From positions 1-27,507 of the IMG/VR virus record IMGVR_UViG_3300004806_000074: a stretch of 27,507 bases of DNA; one strand, written 5' to 3'. Shown here one piece after another: positions 7,829-20,228 of this stretch; the first letter of the stretch is position 1; each line of letters opens with the position of its first letter. This DNA comes from a virus. The notes under the pieces were generated by a model that was not told the DNA's origin, did no database searches, and worked only from the letters and a program-made list of their open reading frames with translations. Made by a program: the position numbers and the translations under genes.

Positions 7829-8764
7829 GTGGCAGTATACCAATCTAATGGGTTTCCCAACCAAGTTCGAAGCTTAAGCCCAGTAACCGACCTTGTAAGC
7901 ATAGTAGATGCGTCTGACGTAGACTCTCTTCAACAAGAGGTTCTATCTATTGAGACTGCTTTAGGAACAGCCGCCACTACTAACCCCCTAGTATCAACGT
8001 TTACAGGTACTTGGACTACAACCATGAATGGTGGAACTTCCTGGAACACCATTGCAGATCGTCTTCTAAACATTGAGGCTGGCCTAGTAAACGGCGTAGG
8101 AACCGCATCTAACTACGTATCTAAAAGCGGTGGCAGCACCATCTCTGTAACTACAAGTACAGGTGCTCCCGGATTAACTTTGGTTACAACCTCAGGTACT
8201 AACAACCTTTTAAAGGCAGCCGCATTTACTCTAAGCTATCTTGGTATTCCACAGGTTAATGGAAGCAACGTCCTATATGTAGGAAGCTCAGATTATACAA
8301 GTCTAGTAAACAGTATTAACGCAGCCTCAGGTACAGGCGGAGCAGCTATTGCAAAGTCCGTCTTTACAGCAGCTGGAGATATGCTCTATGCAACAGCTGC
8401 GGGAACACCTACAAATCTTCCTATTGGAAGTGCTGGACAATACCTTATGGTAATGAGTGGTATGCCAGTATGGACAACGATGCCTATGGGCGTACCAACA
8501 TCTACGCTTACAACTAACGGCGATCTCATGTACTACAACAGCGGTATTACACGTCTTCCTGTAGGAAGTAGCGGCCAAGTATTGACGGTTGTTAGTGGAT
8601 TACCTTCATGGCAGGCACCTAGTAGCGCGTTCGTTTCTCAAACAAATGGAACAGTATCTACTGCTTCTACCTCTTTAGGTGTTGTTAGAAACGTATGGAC
8701 AAGCACCGCAACACCTACATCTTCTAATGGGGCAGATGGAGACATCTGGCTGGTATACGTATAA
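7829..8764 (+). CDS. Tail fibre protein with LPxGSxGQ repeats
   Basis: A 311-residue protein with a GTG start chosen because AAGGAGA lies five bases upstream. The N-terminus (LSPVTDLVSIVDASDVDSL, about 16-34) is followed by a coiled-coil-like stretch and Ser/Thr-rich beta segments. Near residues 180-270 there are two copies of a module of about 40 residues: GDMLYATAAGTPTNLPIGSAG then GDLMYYNSGITRLPVGSSG, each followed by a VVSGLPSW-type end. This module is typical of phage tail fibres, where it marks trimeric beta shafts. The C-terminal strand GADGDIWLVYV is also common in such proteins. It overlaps the next fibre gene by one base. Confidence 0.7.
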   Translation: MAVYQSNGFPNQVRSLSPVTDLVSIVDASDVDSLQQEVLSIETALGTAATTNPLVSTFTGTWTTTMNGGTSWNTIADRLLNIEAGLVNGVGTASNYVSKSGGSTISVTTSTGAPGLTLVTTSGTNNLLKAAAFTLSYLGIPQVNGSNVLYVGSSDYTSLVNSINAASGTGGAAIAKSVFTAAGDMLYATAAGTPTNLPIGSAGQYLMVMSGMPVWTTMPMGVPTSTLTTNGDLMYYNSGITRLPVGSSGQVLTVVSGLPSWQAPSSAFVSQTNGTVSTASTSLGVVRNVWTSTATPTSSNGADGDIWLVYV

Positions 8765-10059
8765 TGCCTGGTCAAATTAGGGTAAGTGGTACCTGGCACA
8801 ATGCAAACTCCGCTCTTGTAAGGGTTTCTGGATCTTGGCGCTCTGTTTCTTCTGGATGGATCAGGATTGCAGGAACTTGGCATAAGTGGTTTACCGGAGC
8901 AGTAACAGACACCTTTACTAGGACAACTACTGCTGGTTCTTTAGGCACAGCTGATACAGGACAGGCTTGGACTACTAACTTTGGTAACTGGTACGCAAAC
9001 GGCTCACAAGCTACATCAGCAGACTCTACATCTACTGGAGTTGCCGGCGCCCTATCTACCATCAATCTTGGTACAGCCAACGTTCAAGAATTTTTGGGCA
9101 CACAAGCAACAAGCACATCTAACCCTTCAGGACTAACACCTCCAGGAACAGGCCTAGCATTCTGGGCAACCCCAGGAGGCTCTTGGTGGGGAGCAATGTC
9201 ATATAGCGATGTCACTACTAGTACGTATTCTTGCCCTGGAACTCCATACTGCAACCCTGTTTATACATGTAATAACGTGACCTCTACATCTACCTATACA
9301 GGTACAGCAGTTCCTGGAACAACAACCTATACATATGTAGGATCAGCAGTTAGCTCATCTGCATCTGTTAGTCAGCGTACGTGTACTTCTGGTGACGTAT
9401 CAAATCCAAGTAGCCCCTGCTTTGGTTATTCTGTGGGTACATGTAGTGTTAGTGGAAGCGGAACCCCTTGCGCATACTCTTGCTCTACAGGCTATAACGC
9501 CCAAAACGGATATTGCTACACATGCTCTACTGGATTTAATGGACCAGCTGGTGGATCAGGAAGCTACGCATCTTGCTATACCTCTTCGACTAGCGCTACA
9601 ACCTATACTTGTAACGCTGGAGATACTGGAGGAGGAACAAGCTCAACCTGTACACATACAACTGTTACTAGTGGGGGAACATATCCATCCTGTAGTAATG
9701 GGTTTACTACCTCTTCTGGTGGAACCTATCCGTCTTGTAGCAATGGGTCCACAACCCCTACTACAACCTGCACCTCTTCTACAACTAACTATTATGTACA
9801 GGTAATCTACTCCTCAGCTGGAGGGTCTAGCTATGCCGTTCAAAGTACAACAGCAACTACTGCCCAGCCTACCTCACTAGAGGTAACTACCAGCGGAAAT
9901 AACTATACAGTTATTGGTTCTACATCAACTGCTACAAACCTAGTGCAGGTTACCGGTACCAACACGGGAACCAAGGGCACATATCATGGTATAGTTAAGG
10001 CATATAGTGCTAATGCACAGGGATCTACAGTAGACAATTTCTCAGCACAAGGACAATAA
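8764..10059 (+). CDS. Fibre protein with lectin-like domain split by a Cys-rich insert
   Basis: A 431-residue protein. The first 42 residues hold three copies of a VRVSGTW-type motif (RVSGTWH, RVSGSWR, RIAGTWHKW), a common phage tail repeat. DTFTRTTTAGSLGTADTGQAW (about 49-69) opens what looks like a concanavalin-type beta sandwich; its closing half appears only near 345-430 (YYVQVIYSSAGG, then GTYHGIVKAYSANAQGS and DNFSAQGQ). Between them lies about 180 residues with 16 cysteines, otherwise Ser, Thr, Gly and Tyr, including a duplicated SGGTYPSCSNG. The cysteines suggest disulfides in the mature virion or metal binding. It is probably exposed on the particle; its ligand is unknown. Confidence 0.65.
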   Translation: MPGQIRVSGTWHNANSALVRVSGSWRSVSSGWIRIAGTWHKWFTGAVTDTFTRTTTAGSLGTADTGQAWTTNFGNWYANGSQATSADSTSTGVAGALSTINLGTANVQEFLGTQATSTSNPSGLTPPGTGLAFWATPGGSWWGAMSYSDVTTSTYSCPGTPYCNPVYTCNNVTSTSTYTGTAVPGTTTYTYVGSAVSSSASVSQRTCTSGDVSNPSSPCFGYSVGTCSVSGSGTPCAYSCSTGYNAQNGYCYTCSTGFNGPAGGSGSYASCYTSSTSATTYTCNAGDTGGGTSSTCTHTTVTSGGTYPSCSNGFTTSSGGTYPSCSNGSTTPTTTCTSSTTNYYVQVIYSSAGGSSYAVQSTTATTAQPTSLEVTTSGNNYTVIGSTSTATNLVQVTGTNTGTKGTYHGIVKAYSANAQGSTVDNFSAQGQ

Positions 10060-13738: not shown

Positions 13739-15829
13739 ATGGCAACATTCAGCCGTCCCGGAGTCTATATCCAAGAGATGCCTTTACCTCAGGCAGTTGG
13801 ACAAGCAAACATTACTAACGCAGCAGGTGCGTTCGTTGGAGCCCTTGTTAAGGGACCAACAACACCTACTCTAGTAACCAACTGGACTGATTTCGTAAAG
13901 AACTTTGGAAATCTAAGTGACTCTTACCCAACAACTTGGGCTGCCTATAACTTTTTTGCTAATGGTGGCCGCCAGCTTTACGTACGTCGTGTAGCCTCAT
14001 CTACTGCTACAGCAGGTGCTGTTACATTTACAGACGGTACTGGAAGCACAACTACAGCTACTGTAACTGCAGCTTCTGCTTCAGGTACTTCAGGAAACTA
14101 CACGTTTACCTATACAGCGGCTAACACATTTACTGCTGGAACCCCAGTAGTAGTTACAGGTCTTCAAGGATCAGTAACCCTTACCGGTGCTACAGCTAGC
14201 GGTACAGGATCTGGAACAACAATCACATTTACAACTGCAAGCACTACTGGATTGTCAACAGGAACTGTAATTACCATTGCCGGTATTACAGGCGCAACTA
14301 CTGGTTCCTTTAACGGAACATTCACAATCACCACAGTAACTGCAAACACCAGCTTTGTAGTATCTCCAGGCTCAACCGTTGCAGGTACTGCAGTAGTCAC
14401 AAGTGCTACAGCACTCTATGGCTCAGCATTTAACTTGAGCGGAACAATTGCTACTGCTAACGGAACTCAGTTCACTGTAGCAAGCACAGCATCAACAGCA
14501 GATCGTTCTGTATCAGGTGCTTCTGGAACTGCAACAGTTACAATCGCTTCTAACAACGTCTTTACTCTTACTGCTAACAGCGTAGGTTCATGGTCGTCAA
14601 ACATCTCAGCTCAGGTATTGCCTGGCGGAGTAAGCACACGTTTTAACCTGAACATCTACACCACTGTAGTACAAAACGGAGTATCTTCTACCTCTTTGGC
14701 AGAAAGCTACAGAGACCTAAGCATGACCACCTCAGACAGGAACTATGTTGTCGCGGTTATCAATGCCTACTCTTCTCTTGTAACTGCAGCACTATCCTCT
14801 AACAATACTGTTAACGCTACAACACAGACTGCAGCGTACTTCCCAGCAATTGCTGCCACCTCTCCAACAGCACTCAGCGGCTATAGCGATGGCACAAACT
14901 TCTTGGGAATCTCATCGTTTGCTCGTTCAGACTATGCTGTCTGGTCTAGCTTTGATAGCATTGTTCAGCCTCTAGTTATCTATGCGGCAGATGCAGCATA
15001 CCTAGGAGCATCACTGTCATCTCAGGTACACGGAGACGCAGTAATCTATGCGGCAAGCCGTACAGATTGCTTTGCAATTATTGATACGCCAGCAGGTGAA
15101 GGCACAGCCTCTGCAGCCCAACAGCAAGTAAACACAATTCAATCCGTGTTTGGTTCTAGCACTACAGGAAATATTGCAGCTGCTTACTGGCCATGGTACA
15201 ACATCCCAGATGGAACTAAGGCAGTAGGCGCACTACGTCTTCAGGCTCCAGGCGCAGGTGTTGCAGGTCAATATCTAAACACAGATGCTGTACGCGGCGC
15301 TGCAAAGACCCCAGCTGGTTTGAGCAACCGACTAGCTCTAGCAGTATCTACAGAGCACTTGTTTACAAATGCTGAGCTTGATCAGATGAATAACCCGCCT
15401 AGCAACTCAAGCTACTCTGTAGTTAACCCGATTCGTCAGGTACCTGGAGCAGGTATTGTGATCATGGGTGGACGTACTCTAGATAACACACCAAACAACC
15501 GCTACATTAATATCCGCCGTTCTCTTATCTACATTGAGAACGCGTTGAATAACCTGACCTCTTTTGCACTCTTTGAGAACAACGATTCTGTTCTCTGGAA
15601 TAGGTTGGAGCTTGCCTGCGGTAACTTCTTGCGCAACTATTGGCAAGGCGGAAACCTACGCGGCACTACACCAGATCAGGCGTTCTACGTAAAGTGCGAC
15701 TCCACAACTACTAGCTTCTCCGATATTCAAAACGGACGAGTCAATATCCAAATCGGAGTTGCTCTACAATACCCAGCAGAGTTCGTTGTCATTACTATTG
15801 GACAACTTACAGGAAACGCTTCAGCGTAA
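13739..15829 (+). CDS. Contractile tail sheath protein
   Basis: A 696-residue sheath subunit. The N-terminus has the family opening RPGVYIQEMPLPQAVGQ (6-22) and TTWAAYNFFANGGRQLYVRRV (65-85). The C-terminal half has RYINIRRSLIYIENALNNLT and WQGGNLRGTTPDQAFYVKCD, with a final strand pair after it, both diagnostic of phage sheaths. The sheath assembles around the tube and contracts on infection. Between residues about 89 and 270 lies a Thr/Ala/Gly/Ser-rich insertion that is not part of the core sheath; it includes two copies of a beta module (106-150 and 151-225) similar to ones in the baseplate J protein. The core resumes at FTLTANSVGSWSSNI (276-290). TAAGGAG lies before the start. The tube gene follows after 14 bases. 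Confidence 0.95.
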   Translation: MATFSRPGVYIQEMPLPQAVGQANITNAAGAFVGALVKGPTTPTLVTNWTDFVKNFGNLSDSYPTTWAAYNFFANGGRQLYVRRVASSTATAGAVTFTDGTGSTTTATVTAASASGTSGNYTFTYTAANTFTAGTPVVVTGLQGSVTLTGATASGTGSGTTITFTTASTTGLSTGTVITIAGITGATTGSFNGTFTITTVTANTSFVVSPGSTVAGTAVVTSATALYGSAFNLSGTIATANGTQFTVASTASTADRSVSGASGTATVTIASNNVFTLTANSVGSWSSNISAQVLPGGVSTRFNLNIYTTVVQNGVSSTSLAESYRDLSMTTSDRNYVVAVINAYSSLVTAALSSNNTVNATTQTAAYFPAIAATSPTALSGYSDGTNFLGISSFARSDYAVWSSFDSIVQPLVIYAADAAYLGASLSSQVHGDAVIYAASRTDCFAIIDTPAGEGTASAAQQQVNTIQSVFGSSTTGNIAAAYWPWYNIPDGTKAVGALRLQAPGAGVAGQYLNTDAVRGAAKTPAGLSNRLALAVSTEHLFTNAELDQMNNPPSNSSYSVVNPIRQVPGAGIVIMGGRTLDNTPNNRYINIRRSLIYIENALNNLTSFALFENNDSVLWNRLELACGNFLRNYWQGGNLRGTTPDQAFYVKCDSTTTSFSDIQNGRVNIQIGVALQYPAEFVVITIGQLTGNASA

Positions 15830-15843
15830 GGAGATAGATAAAA

Positions 15844-16551
15844 ATGACAACATCAACAACACCTACACCGGGTGGATATCAAAACCCTCTAAGTACTTTA
15901 ATGTCGGATCCAGTCCGTAATTTTAAGTTCTTAGTTACATTTACACCTAATGACCTCACAAACTGGGGTGCATTATCTGGTGGATTTGGAACCATGGGAT
16001 TCGTTTCACTTACAGGTCTATCAGTATCAACAGAGTCTATCGCATACCGTGAAGGCGGATACAACACCAACGTGCATCAGATTCCCGGACAATCTTCTTT
16101 CACCCCACTTACTCTTTCAAAGGGAGTACTTATGGGCAATGATGGAAATGCTCTATGGATGAAGAGGTTGTTCTCGGTGATGACCCCTACAGCTGTAGCC
16201 GGGTACGGTATCGACTTCCGTTGCACAATCGATATCCAAGTGCTATCGCATCCAAACCCACTTGCTGCTACTGGGTCTGACTCATCTACTACAGTAGCAA
16301 ACGGAGTAGATCAACACACTGCTCTACGATTCCGCGTCTATAACGCTTGGATCACCTCCCTTGCCTACAGCAATCTGGATGCAGGTGGAAACACTTTGAT
16401 GGTAGAAGACATGACTATCGTTCATGAAGGCTTTGATGTAAGCTACGCTACCGGCTTGGCCGCTAGCTTGGGAGCACCAAAGTTCACCTCAAGTGGAGCA
16501 ACTAGCTCTACTGTTTCAGGTGGTGGCGGTAAAGGTCCTATCATCGCATAG
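15844..16551 (+). CDS. Tail tube protein (T4 gp19-like)
   Basis: A 235-residue protein of the T4 gp19 tube family. PVRNFKFLVTFTP (22-34), SLTGLSVSTESIAYREGGYN (55-74), HQIPGQSSFTPLTLSKGVLM (78-97) and the late VYNAWITSLAYSNLDAGGN and MVEDMTIVHEGFDVSY segments are the classic family order. It forms the inner tube through which DNA passes. The C-terminus has a Ser/Gly-rich tail (residues about 220-235) not typical of the core. GGAG lies before the ATG. The promoter-like box at 16554 begins just after its stop. Confidence 0.93.
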   Translation: MTTSTTPTPGGYQNPLSTLMSDPVRNFKFLVTFTPNDLTNWGALSGGFGTMGFVSLTGLSVSTESIAYREGGYNTNVHQIPGQSSFTPLTLSKGVLMGNDGNALWMKRLFSVMTPTAVAGYGIDFRCTIDIQVLSHPNPLAATGSDSSTTVANGVDQHTALRFRVYNAWITSLAYSNLDAGGNTLMVEDMTIVHEGFDVSYATGLAASLGAPKFTSSGATSSTVSGGGGKGPIIA

Positions 16552-16592: not shown

Positions 16593-17399
16593 ATGACTAC
16601 AGATACATTTATAAATGCTACAAGTGATCCTAGCCTAGCTAACAAGCTAGCTGAAAAAGCAATGTCCGATACGGAGGCGGTTGTTACTACACCTAAAGTA
16701 CAGCTGCCTCCGGATCCAACCGTAGAGCTTCCTGGTGGACTTCATGACCCAATTCATGGACACATCACTACAGCTCAGGTAAGGGAATTGATCGGCTCAG
16801 ATGAGGAAGCCGTAACTAAGCTAAATGATATCGGCAAGGCACTTCTTCTAATCCTTGACAGAGCAACAGTAAAGCTTGGGGATGTAGAGCCAGAGAAAGA
16901 GATGCTAGACGCCCTTCTCTCAGGAGATAGGGAAGCCATGCTATTAAAGATCAGAATGATGACCTTTGGCTCAGACGTTAAGATGGGCCCGGGTAAATGC
17001 CCAAGCTGCGGTGAAGAACAGATCTGGGATATCGACCTAGTAAACGATGTTCCTGTAAAAATCCTAGAGGGCAGCAGAGAATTTACTATGCAATGTAAGG
17101 TTGGAGAGGTAGTAGTTAGCCTCCCTACGGGAGGTACCCAAAAAGAAATTATCAACTCTACCAATAAAACCTCAGCAGAAATAGATACAATTGTACTAAA
17201 GAGCTGCATTAAGTCTATTAACGGACTTCCAGTTTTTGGATTGGAAGCCATACGATCTCTAAGTATTAAAGATCGTAGAGACATTCTGCAGCAAATATCA
17301 GACCGCAACCCTGGACCACAACTCGGAGATGTTAAAAAAGCTTGTAGTGCCTGCGGCACGGAGGTACCGCTTCCGCTAACGTTAGCGGAGTTGTTTTAA
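16593..17399 (+). CDS. gp26-like / tail assembly chaperone protein, zero-frame product
   Basis: A 268-residue protein placed between tube and tape measure, the classic position of tail assembly chaperones. Helical segments (TTAQVRELIG, AVTKLNDIGKALLLILDRAT, MLDALLSGDREAMLLKIRMMTFG) lead to a split zinc site, CPSC (136-139) and CSAC (251-254). This resembles T4 gp26-type baseplate proteins, which carry a similar DRE-x-L-L-x-K-I-R and Cys knuckles. The final residues are PLTLAELF, ending at UUU-UAA-C. A +1 frameshift there would extend it by 49 residues (see 17398-17547). The gene follows a promoter-like box and AAGGA. Confidence 0.75.
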   Translation: MTTDTFINATSDPSLANKLAEKAMSDTEAVVTTPKVQLPPDPTVELPGGLHDPIHGHITTAQVRELIGSDEEAVTKLNDIGKALLLILDRATVKLGDVEPEKEMLDALLSGDREAMLLKIRMMTFGSDVKMGPGKCPSCGEEQIWDIDLVNDVPVKILEGSREFTMQCKVGEVVVSLPTGGTQKEIINSTNKTSAEIDTIVLKSCIKSINGLPVFGLEAIRSLSIKDRRDILQQISDRNPGPQLGDVKKACSACGTEVPLPLTLAELF

Positions 17400-17400
17400 C
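17372..17400 (+). other. Candidate programmed +1 frameshift site with upstream palindrome
   Basis: The zero frame ends GAG-TTG-TTT-TAA-C. GGAG (17387-17390) lies three bases before TTT. TTT can slip one base forward onto TTT (17395-17397) while the weak stop TAA-C waits, the same arrangement as the RF2 gene (SD, three bases, slippery codon, stop, C). An 18-base perfect palindrome, TCCGCTAACGTTAGCGGA (17372-17389), overlaps the SD and could fold as a hairpin. Confidence 0.65.
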
Positions 17401-17547
17401 GGCGAAATAAGCTATGAGTTCCTGCTAGATATGTATGACATATTAAGTCAAGGATATCCTGGATGGAACTTAGAAGACATACGATCTCTTAGCTTAAGAG
17501 AACGAGTCATATGGTTAGAGAAACTACGGAACAGAGCAAGGCGGTGA
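17398..17547 (+). CDS. +1-frame extension of the tail chaperone gene
   Basis: After the slip the frame reads NGEISYEFLLDMYDILSQGY, then PGWNLEDIRSLSLRERVIWL and EKLRNRARR before TGA (17545-17547): 49 codons with no stop. It has no good start of its own; the only in-frame ATG (17431) lacks a ribosome site. The segment LEDIRSLSLRER copies LEAIRSLSIKDR (217-228) of the zero-frame protein, which is strong support that this stretch is coding. The tape-measure gene starts five bases later. The full fusion would be 16593-17547, about 317 residues. A sequencing indel in the TTTT run is the alternative. Confidence 0.65.
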   Translation, partial: NGEISYEFLLDMYDILSQGYPGWNLEDIRSLSLRERVIWLEKLRNRARR

Positions 17548-17552
17548 TATAA

Positions 17553-20228
17553 ATGGCAATCGATAATATGCAGACACCTTCAGACGGAGAACCGTCTATT
17601 CCTGTCGTAAATACCGATGCGTTATTTGAAGACCTTCCTAAAGAAATGCTCCGCCTCTTTAAAGAGGTTGAAAAGTATGTAACCTCTATATCTAAAAAGT
17701 GGACCGACGCTCTTAAAGAGACTAGACAAGCTACTGGAGATTTATCTAAAAATACTCCTGGTTCAGGACGTCTAGGACTTGGATCATTTTCTACAACTGA
17801 AAAGGTTGGTCTTGGTCTAGGCCTAGCAACAATGGGCTATATGTCTGCCACCCCAAATACAATGGCAGCAGTTACTCAACGCATTGCTGCAGATAGCTAT
17901 GCTGGCTTAAGCGGAATGTCCTCCCGTCAGGCTATCATGCAGGCCAATAGGCTTGTAGGCGGCGGAGTAACCAGCGCTATGGGTCCAACCATGGCAGCTA
18001 TGAATCTCTTTTATCAAGGCGGCTATACTGCTAGCTCATTAAGCTCCAAGAATATTATGGGGTCTCTTGCTGGTTTGAGCGCCATGACTGGTATGACAAA
18101 CGAGCAGGCGGCATCTAGCGTTGCTGGAATTAACGGCATGAGCTTCTTGCGTATGGGTATTAGGGTACGTGACAATAACGGAAACCTAAGACCTATCGGT
18201 GACATTGTTAATGATGTATATAACTTCCTATACCGTGGCCAGAAGATTACAAAAGAGCAGGCAGCTCTTGTATATAACCCAGGAAGTAAGGGCTATCAAA
18301 CACTCTCTATGATTGCTGGAGGCGACTCCGGATTAATGCAGGCTCTTCAAGCAGGCGTAGTAGCTAGAGCGTCAGCTTCTTCTGGTACGCAATTTGCTAG
18401 TGCTATGTCTAGCCGTGATCCTAATCAGATGCTTAATATCATGGGCGTTGATCAAAGCAGCCCATTACGTAGAAACTTTAAGTTCCAGACTAGCCAAGCT
18501 AATGTTCTTCAAGCTACTGAGCAAGGATTAGTTGGCGGATACAACACTGCTTTAGATGTAGCAAGTGCTGCTAACAATGGCTTAGCTACATTTGCCAACC
18601 TTCTAGGACCAATCAATCAAGGTCTCATGACCTTAAAAGGAATACTTGAAACTCTTCCTGGTGCTGGAAATGTGGGAGGAACTATAAGCGGTGCTGCAGG
18701 GGCGGCAATAGGTCTTGGTAAAAACTACCTTCAATATAAGATGTTAGGTAGGCTTCTAGAAGGTGGCGGAGCAAGAGCTGCTGGAACAAGCCTGCTATCT
18801 AAAGGAAAAGGATTACTTGGCCGTATAGGTTCATGGCTTGGAAAAGAAGCACCTGTTATTGCAGAAGATGCGGCAATTATTGCTACCGGTGGTCCTTCTG
18901 ATCACGGAGGTACTGGCTCTGGAGGAGCTTCAGCTATCTCATTAAATGATAGTAAGGTGCACTACCCTATCTCTAGGAATGCCCCTATTACCCAAAACTT
19001 TGCACGCTCTGGACACACCGGCGTTGACTTTGGAATAAAGCTTAATAGCCCAGTATACGCATATGCGGACGGAATAGTTACCCACATAGGTAATGAGCCA
19101 ACTGGCTATGGTAACTGGATTGAAATCTCTCACCCAGAACTAGGCATTAAAACAAGGTACGGACACTTAAAAAGCATTAGTGTAACTAGAAAGCAAGTAG
19201 TTACTGAAGGTCAGATAATTGGTACCTCTGGTTCTACGGGTAGGTCTAAGGGCCCACACCTTCACTTTGAAGTGCTCGTAAATAATCAAAAGGTAGATCC
19301 AGAGAAATACCTTAATGCTACTAATAGCAGCGGAAAGAAGCTTAATTCTAAGTCTCTAGCTTCACGTCTACAGGAAGATACTTCAAATAGTTTAGCTGGT
19401 TTTAAGGCTAGACCTTTTAGGGCAAACAACGGTAAATGGGTTTTTCCAAGCTATAATGGATCTAAATCTGGAGCATACAACGCAGGCTTCATTGTTAACT
19501 CTGGTACTGGTACCGGCAATGCTGAAATAGTAAAGAACTTTTTAGTTGCTAATGGGCTTACTACTTCTGCAGGTATAGGTGTTGTAGGTAACTTACTTGT
19601 AGAGTCCGGGGTAAATCCAAATAACCCAGGAGACTACGGAACATACGACGCTAGAGGAAACTTCATACCAATGAGAAAAGGAACACCAGGTGGTCAATAT
19701 ACCTCTGGTGGAATTGCTCAATGGCATGCCAGCCGTTATGATCTACTTACTAAGTTTGCACAAAGTAGAAATCTAGATCCTCTAAACCTTACTACCCAAG
19801 AACAATTTATGATGGCAGAGTTAAAGCGCCCTCAATATGCTCAGCTATTTGCTCAGTTGAGAAACCCAAATACTACTGAACAAGCTGCTGCAGACATGTG
19901 GATGAGGCAGTATGAGAAGCCAAATTTAGGTTCAGACAATGGCGTGTCAAACTCTGCAAGTAGAGCTGCCGCTGGACTTGCTGCATTTAAGACTGCTCAA
20001 GGCGGACCAACAGATCATGGAAACATGGCTACGGTTGCACACATCGGAGGCTCCTACTCATCTGGAGGATCTGCCACCCTTAATAGCAGAAAAGATGTAC
20101 ACATTAATTTAAACATGAAAGTATATATTGCTAATGCTAGCGTTCAACAAACTGAAGCACTAGTCAATGCTGTTAGCCAAAAACTTAAGAATAGTGAGGC
20201 TCTTAAGATGATTGCGAGCTCCTTATAA
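17553..20228 (+). CDS. Tape measure protein with M23 peptidase and tail lysozyme domains
   Basis: An 891-residue protein. The N-terminal half is helical and Ala/Gly/Met-rich, as in tape measures, with hydrophobic segments (VGLGLGLATMGYM; ISGAAGAAIGLGKNYL). Residues about 470-590 are an M23 endopeptidase: H488-x3-D492 (HTGVDFG), then YGHLKSI, and H569-L-H571 (GPHLHFEV), the zinc ligands. Residues about 650-800 match the phage tail lysozyme domain: VVGNLLVESGVNP with probable catalytic E684, GIAQWHASRYDLL, EQFMMAELKR, and AADMWMRQYEKP. Both activities would cut peptidoglycan while the tail penetrates. It follows the chaperone gene and overlaps the next gene by one base, as expected for a tape measure. 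The C-terminal end holds short beta strands (DVHINLNMKVYI). Confidence 0.85.
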   Translation: MAIDNMQTPSDGEPSIPVVNTDALFEDLPKEMLRLFKEVEKYVTSISKKWTDALKETRQATGDLSKNTPGSGRLGLGSFSTTEKVGLGLGLATMGYMSATPNTMAAVTQRIAADSYAGLSGMSSRQAIMQANRLVGGGVTSAMGPTMAAMNLFYQGGYTASSLSSKNIMGSLAGLSAMTGMTNEQAASSVAGINGMSFLRMGIRVRDNNGNLRPIGDIVNDVYNFLYRGQKITKEQAALVYNPGSKGYQTLSMIAGGDSGLMQALQAGVVARASASSGTQFASAMSSRDPNQMLNIMGVDQSSPLRRNFKFQTSQANVLQATEQGLVGGYNTALDVASAANNGLATFANLLGPINQGLMTLKGILETLPGAGNVGGTISGAAGAAIGLGKNYLQYKMLGRLLEGGGARAAGTSLLSKGKGLLGRIGSWLGKEAPVIAEDAAIIATGGPSDHGGTGSGGASAISLNDSKVHYPISRNAPITQNFARSGHTGVDFGIKLNSPVYAYADGIVTHIGNEPTGYGNWIEISHPELGIKTRYGHLKSISVTRKQVVTEGQIIGTSGSTGRSKGPHLHFEVLVNNQKVDPEKYLNATNSSGKKLNSKSLASRLQEDTSNSLAGFKARPFRANNGKWVFPSYNGSKSGAYNAGFIVNSGTGTGNAEIVKNFLVANGLTTSAGIGVVGNLLVESGVNPNNPGDYGTYDARGNFIPMRKGTPGGQYTSGGIAQWHASRYDLLTKFAQSRNLDPLNLTTQEQFMMAELKRPQYAQLFAQLRNPNTTEQAAADMWMRQYEKPNLGSDNGVSNSASRAAAGLAAFKTAQGGPTDHGNMATVAHIGGSYSSGGSATLNSRKDVHINLNMKVYIANASVQQTEALVNAVSQKLKNSEALKMIASSL

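Follow-up and report, generated by a model that had tools for sequence, protein, structure and literature searches.

The main known bacterial case of programmed +1 frameshifting is prfB, with its Shine-Dalgarno (SD) sequence. In tail genes, phage lambda makes two isoforms with a common N domain, G and GT, and the lambda type of shift is a -1 slip at X_XXY_YYZ. For haloviruses, a +1 shift at TTT-CGC has been proposed for the tail assembly chaperones (TACs) of the HF1 group (PMC7230728), and +1 shifting has also been proposed for the tail assembly chaperone of HSTV-2 (PMC5009743). In bacteria, the tetranucleotide UUU_Ynn is prone to +1 shifting even when no stop adjoins it (PMC5009743). An upstream hairpin placed by the E site stimulates +1 shifting both in yeast and in a 70S lysate, standing in for the SD-antiSD helix (PMC6321510, PMC3639245). 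In the 70S lysate it has ~60% of the effect of an SD, an effect published only for reactions lacking RF2, with CUUUGA as the site and a stem of 12 bp (PMC6321510). In T4 gene 60, a 5' stem-loop is thought to pull the mRNA while it re-forms at the exit channel (PMC5009743).

The DNA analyzed here is a 27.5-kb virus record, referred to as the window, and its tail genes were read within that stretch. Open reading frames and domain searches indicate that it encodes contractile-tail sheath, tube, tape-measure, and baseplate genes, with the chaperone gene (16593-17547) lying between the tail tube and the tape measure (Table 1). The zero frame starts with the ATG at 16593 and ends TTG-TTT-TAA, followed by C at 17400, with GGAG exactly 3 nt 5' of TTT. 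A +1 slip on TTTT would open 49 codons (17398-17544) up to a TGA at 17545-17547, leaving five bases before the tape-measure ATG, so that TAC-N plus the extension would give a predicted long form of 317 aa. These elements, on which the initial annotation had built its proposal of an RF2-like site, were read directly in the sequence. In the window the +1 frame is open for only 3 codons 5' of the slip; the TAG that precedes them limits where the shift can occur to the final few codons of the zero frame, and within this bounded region TTT_T is the only site with full re-pairing after a +1 slip. A -1 slippery heptamer of the form X_XXY_YYZ is ruled out for the window and its clade, since the extension is in the +1 frame.

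Table 1. Features of the chaperone locus and its neighbors, in window coordinates
Feature	Coordinates	Strand	Basis
Tail sheath gene	13739..15829	+	context: contractile tail
Tail tube gene, PF06841 T4 gp19	15844..16551	+	domain match
Zero-frame tail assembly chaperone, short form (TAC-N, G-like), 268 aa	16593..17399	+	ORF, PF12322, structure model
5' RNA hairpin	17371..17390	+	folding vs synonymous resampling, relatives
TAG in +1 frame, 5' bound of shift region	17383..17385	+	sequence
GGAG, Shine-Dalgarno-like, 3 nt 5' of UUU, within hairpin 3' arm	17387..17390	+	sequence
E-site codon UUG	17391..17393	+	kept in 44/50 relatives
Slippery tetranucleotide UUU_U (UUU_Y in +1 relatives)	17394..17397	+	relatives
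Zero-frame stop UAA, adjoining UUU	17397..17399	+	sequence
+1-frame extension (T-like), 49 aa + TGA	17398..17547	+	frame reading, relatives, codon-position bias
Tape measure gene, M23 peptidase + phage tail lysozyme domains	17553..20228	+	domain matches

The locus resembles those of the HF1 group and HSTV-2 in that a TAC gene lies between tube and tape measure in a contractile-tailed virus, and the likeness to the HF1 group extends to a +1 shift at UUU-CGC shortly 5' of the zero-frame stop, as read in the HF2 sequence. The halovirus proposals (PMC7230728, PMC5009743) thus partly anticipate what the initial annotation had called unusual, a +1 shift in a tail assembly chaperone. Unlike the product studied here, the HF2 TAC-N has no PF12322 match, and the host of the HF1 group is archaeal; HF2, considered as a second hairpin-bearing TAC, showed no 5' hairpin (p 0.39). 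The likeness to the HF1-group sites looks convergent. With lambda G/GT, the gene shares its position, two isoforms (here predicted) with a common N domain, and the predicted function; it differs in shifting +1 at UUU_Y where the lambda type shifts -1 at X_XXY_YYZ.

The +1 arrangement is widely conserved. We collected close relatives from IMG/VR (80 loci, reduced to 50 nonredundant ones) and three more distant sets, consisting of 57 distinct actinophage-type relatives, 69 distinct aquatic contigs, and 8 loci from bacterial genome assemblies. The zero-frame gene is accompanied by a +1-frame extension in all 50 nonredundant close relatives, and the same arrangement with TTT-Y is found in 57/57 actinophage-type, 69/69 aquatic, and 8/8 actinobacterial-type genome-assembly loci. 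More than 170 distinct relatives thus have the identical offset, complete phage genomes included. Named phages with the +1 arrangement are Streptomyces phages LuckySocke, BRock, pSt2308, and GiJojo, Bacillus phage SP-15, Listeria phage LIS04, and Streptococcus phage GXN1; it also occurs in one Microcystis and one Flavobacterium phage, and the genome-assembly loci come from five Streptomyces, Terracoccus, Nonomuraea, and one metagenome-assembled genome. Within the extension, substitutions fall on +1-frame codon positions 1, 2, and 3 in the numbers 3089, 1688, and 4726, a bias which indicates protein-coding constraint, i.e., purifying selection, in the +1 frame. The initial annotation's central claim, a +1 frameshift at TTT that adds a C-terminal extension to the chaperone, is thereby borne out in close and distant relatives alike: at the sequence level the +1 frameshift is real, the arrangement is far beyond chance, and comparison fixes the site, direction, and frame of the shift. 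Nothing beyond the window's being a single contig speaks for a sequencing error or a pseudogene, a reading which the identical offset in so many relatives refutes and whose probability we consider negligible.

Judged by these alignments, the invariant element of the site is UUU followed by a pyrimidine (UUU_Y) and not an RF2-like signal. UUU_Y occurs together with a +1-frame extension in the window and in the close, actinophage, aquatic, and chromosomal +1 relatives; the slip site common to them is UUU plus U or C at the end of a (L/I/F)-F motif, and LIS04 fits UUU_U at its first UUU. TTT is kept at the site although the ratio of TTT to TTC elsewhere is 117:337 in actinophage-type genes and 23:232 at the actinobacterial chromosomal loci. 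Elsewhere in the genes of the close relatives, 17 of 199 instances have TTT followed by a pyrimidine, compared with 50 of 50 at the site. The E-site UUG, present in 44 of the 50 relatives, has a synonymous identity of 0.84 against 0.30 expected. What follows UUU is more variable. The A-site codon in the close relatives is CGN (27), CAR (15), or a stop (8), while UGG or UAC takes this place in almost every member of the aquatic group. The zero-frame stop follows UUU after 0, 1, or 2 codons in 8, 8, and 34 of the 50 close relatives, mostly after 3 codons in the actinophage type, and after 4-7 in the aquatic group. As a separate observation, the Glu codon at 17361-17363, 11 codons 5' of UUU, is GAG and never GAA in all 50 close relatives, a case of synonymous conservation just 5' of the hairpin described below.

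The same comparison bears on the RF2-like proposal, in which the internal SD (GGAG) and slow termination at UAA would drive the +1 shift and make expression sensitive to release factors. The window itself has the features expected of such a site, GGAG at 3-nt spacing and UUU_UAA_C; a small fraction of prfB genes slip on UUU_U, and +1 sites have their SD at a distance of 3 nt (PMC5009743). With prfB the locus shares a P-site +1 slip with re-pairing on a U-rich sequence and a duplex beside the E site, and, in the window only, the SD spacing and the adjacent stop followed by C. It differs in having UUU for CUU, UAA-C for UGA-C, and a hairpin for the conserved SD, in that the stop is not conserved, and in not encoding a release factor. 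Alignment of the homologues conserves the +1 frame but neither the SD nor TTT-TAA-C. GGAG is found in only 5 of the 50 relatives, which tells against SD stimulation as a conserved mechanism, and L012 and L014, which are near relatives of the window, retain the hairpin with GGAA at this position. The proposed dependence on the stop fares no better, since a stop adjoins UUU in only 8 of 50, in two clades; it arose twice on the tree and may be UAA, UAG, or UGA with any base next, so that the base after the stop is not conserved either. Because a sense codon (CGN or CAR) follows UUU in the other 42, the suggested RF1/RF2 sensitivity cannot be a general property. An RF2-like mechanism is therefore ruled out as a conserved feature by the counts for GGAG and the adjacent stop, and we regard it as unlikely to account for the shift, while SD pairing or a slow stop may help in the window phage itself.

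Two further readings would dispense with ribosomal frameshifting. In the first, the extension is a separate small gene reached by termination-reinitiation and is not fused to the chaperone. Annotations of LuckySocke, BRock, GiJojo, and SP-15 do show separate small downstream ORFs, and some ATG, GTG, or TTG lies within the scanned stretch in 21 of the 50 close relatives. However, the early extension of the remaining 29 contains none of these codons, which makes separate initiation unlikely; where starts do occur their positions are not conserved, and amino-acid conservation begins ~3 codons past the slip, 5' of most candidate starts. We consider this reading very unlikely. In the second, the polymerase rather than the ribosome slips. 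A U7 run (TTTTTTT) in the aquatic group (A9) makes polymerase slippage possible there, but the run is 4 T long in the window and no more than TTTC in most of the close and actinophage-type relatives, too short for efficient polymerase slippage, so that transcriptional slippage is highly improbable as the general explanation. The shift site of these aquatic contigs (L210-L289) is a near-invariant TTT TTT TGG CCT or TTT TTT TAC CCT.

A second element of the locus, a predicted RNA hairpin 5' of the slip site, is better conserved than the SD among the close relatives. Its core stem pairs CCGCUA (17373-17378) with UAGCGG (17383-17388) around the loop ACGU (17379-17382), and flanking U.G and U-A pairs (17371-17372 with 17389-17390) lengthen it to 8 bp. 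Folding energy was taken over the 27 nt 5' of UUU and compared with synonymous recodings. The window hairpin has a minimum free energy of -10.7 against a synonymous-resampling mean of -1.3 (z -5.5), and over the 50 nonredundant relatives the mean z is -5.0 versus -0.29 in control windows of the same genes. The stability thus exceeds what the protein sequence requires, at a site positioned 5' of the P-site codon; the hairpin end lies usually 5 nt, and mostly 3-5 nt, 5' of UUU in the relatives. The GGAG of the window falls in the hairpin 3' arm, and the hairpin is kept in relatives without GGAG.

Two registers of the stem occur. In one, CCGCUA pairs with UAGCGG and the alanine codons are GCG; in the other, CUGCCA pairs with UGGCAG and they are GCA. 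G.U pairs bridge the intermediates. In 49 of 50 relatives the wobble base of the 5'-arm proline codon matches that of the 3'-arm alanine codon. About 7 register switches occurred on the protein tree, at least 4 of which are forced by supported branches. Swapping 5' and 3' halves between relatives destabilized the stem: the native combinations averaged -9.13 versus -6.86 for the swapped ones, and 0 of 2000 permutations reached the native mean. Strongly supported branches provide 3 independent pairs for coupling of the arms and 0 against, too few for significance, and double-substitution covariation within one register was not found in the close relatives.

Outside the close relatives, the five Streptomyces chromosomal loci have 8-9 bp stems ending exactly 5 nt 5' of UUU (p 0.002-0.0135), a 7-bp stem in LR756508, an uncultured phage, ends 3 nt 5' of UUU (p 0.006), and BRock has a stem with a 5-bp core (p 0.011). 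The hairpin is weaker in the large distant groups (mean z about -1.6; 19/53 and 29/64 below 0.05), where fixed-register helices were not significant or weak in the two groups, and it is absent in several relatives (LIS04, GXN1, Mel-JY01, and immuto). A search of Rfam gave no match in the window. The weakness or absence of the hairpin in distant relatives indicates that it is lineage dependent, strong in some lineages and optional in others, whereas the UUU_Y slip is general.

The main rival for the hairpin part of our reading is that the stem is an intrinsic transcription terminator or attenuator which lowers expression of the tape measure and is unrelated to the frameshift. A terminator scan flags TTCCGCTAACGTTAGCGGAG-TTGTTTTAAC, a hairpin with a U-rich tail fits the pattern, and at least 5 T occur in the 8-nt tail in 45 of the 50 relatives. 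Yet one such site was found where 1.1 were expected in shuffles, and two non-U bases come between the core stem and a U tract that is itself interrupted. The Streptomyces chromosomal loci, moreover, combine a stronger stem with a tail of only, e.g., ACATCTTTCTC, and the stem keeps a near-fixed distance to UUU. We consider it quite unlikely that the hairpin serves as a terminator.

Two chaperone isoforms made by a +1 slip on UUU, with the hairpin as stimulator, are the best explanation of these observations and a probable one. From the arrangement we infer stimulation by the hairpin, the size of its effect, and the role of the A-site codon. Most ribosomes would terminate and yield the 268-aa TAC-N, while a fraction would shift +1 and yield the 317-aa TAC-NC with its T-like tail. 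In the shift, P-site tRNAPhe (anticodon GAA) would slip from UUU to the overlapping UUU, or UUC in most relatives. When the P site receives UUU, the hairpin's 3' arm would emerge from the ribosome, and the stem would re-form within the mRNA exit channel, beside the E site and ~5 nt 5' of the P-site codon, where it could mimic an SD. It may then act like the internal SD helix of prfB, by straining or releasing the tRNA-mRNA contacts of the E and P sites or by blocking backward movement. The A-site codon, which is a stop here and CGN or CAR in most relatives, would set only how long the ribosome waits. The hairpin mechanism is suggested by the precedents of engineered hairpins and T4 gene 60. 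The engineered refolding hairpins are likewise SD mimics juxtaposed to the E site (PMC6321510, PMC3639245), but those are synthetic, and the one described here appears to be a natural, conserved element. Influenza PA-X (UUU_CGN) and YopN-TyeA (UUU_Ynn) have the same slippery tetranucleotide class (PMC3498833, PMC5009743), although PA-X has no evident stimulator and different genes are involved.

The literature searched contained no natural +1 site with an upstream hairpin stimulator, and two points appear to be new there: that a natural +1 site has a conserved hairpin on its 5' side, and that UUU_Y shifting is so widespread among gp26-type chaperones. We lean somewhat towards a broader view, in which these loci would form a natural, widely conserved +1 class whose exit-channel 5' hairpin replaces the SD helix, drives the tRNAPhe slip on UUU_Y, and serves gp26-type contractile-tail chaperones, and whose lineages switch between +1 shifting, -1 shifting, and, in T4, gene duplication. 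If this is true, the set of over 170 distinct UUU_Y sites, many of which have a 5' hairpin in position, would show that evolution can substitute an intramolecular duplex for the SD helix. Natural variants with or without an A-site stop, with or without an SD, and with the hairpin in register A or B would separate the contribution of each element. The reading would also supply the expected long product of a chaperone gene whose usual annotation is "baseplate hub" or a pair of unrelated ORFs, affecting annotations in Streptomyces, Bacillus, Listeria, and aquatic phages.

Switching of the shift direction is indicated by PF12322-type relatives that have a -1-frame extension, namely, LR756511, Atu_ph07, and Lysobacter and Ramlibacter loci; such extensions suggest that lineages switch direction at the same place. 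Among the loci L119-L122, L092, and L094, the -1-frame extension is at U6-U9 runs, in the place of the +1 site. For T4, the comparison is with two genes and no frameshift: gp26 and gp51 both match PF12322, and gp51 has ~48 extra C-terminal residues. In a full-length HHalign comparison, the alignment of gp51 to the fused family is collinear (91.6%, E 8e-7), which fits two genes in T4 versus one frameshifted gene here; the extension alone gave no significant HHalign match to T4 gp51 (probability ~1%). A 2022 paper in Virology on T4-like TACs probably deals with the T4 two-gene point.

The identity of the gene as a tail assembly chaperone, putatively bridging tape measure and tube, is suggested by its position, family, and fold. 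The zero-frame product matches PF12322 (T4_baseplate, gp26-type) with an E value of 7.9e-10 and 39.2 bits against a cut-off of 24.5, and also matches phrog_150 (baseplate hub); it contains two CxxC pairs. The AlphaFold model of TAC-N has a mean pLDDT of 81.9, and its top match in the PDB is the HK97 tail assembly chaperone 2ob9 (Foldseek E 0.12, prob 0.97; VIA Z 6.6, which is below the Z 8 confidence level, over 89 residues with an rmsd of 4.6). Searching PDB sequences with a profile turned up no relative. The extension, modeled from one sequence with a pLDDT of ~60, has three predicted helices. The end of the zero-frame protein (IRSLSIKDRRDIL; 17238-17290) and the extension (IRSLSLRERVIWL; 17468-17520) have a common 27-residue motif (HHalign E 1.5e-4), and the DNA run CATACGATCTCT is common to the same two stretches of the window. 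The extension may, on this repeat, have arisen from an internal duplication.

Several minor observations concern the surroundings of the gene. In the actinobacterial genome assemblies (L111-L118), the order of genes is sheath, tube, TAC, and tape measure. Of four host genomes searched for portal and terminase families, only that of Streptomyces rimosus has a terminase near the TAC locus, 25 kb away. Neither a PF04860 portal nor a PF03237 terminase was found in the Terracoccus genome (L117), and its locus possibly encodes a tailocin-like particle. In the window, M23 peptidase and phage tail lysozyme domains occur together in the tape measure. A cysteine-rich repetitive ORF with TYPSCSNG repeats lies at 8764-10059, and long collagen-like QGTQGT repeats occur in two proteins, encoded at 2-1519 and 2230-2892.
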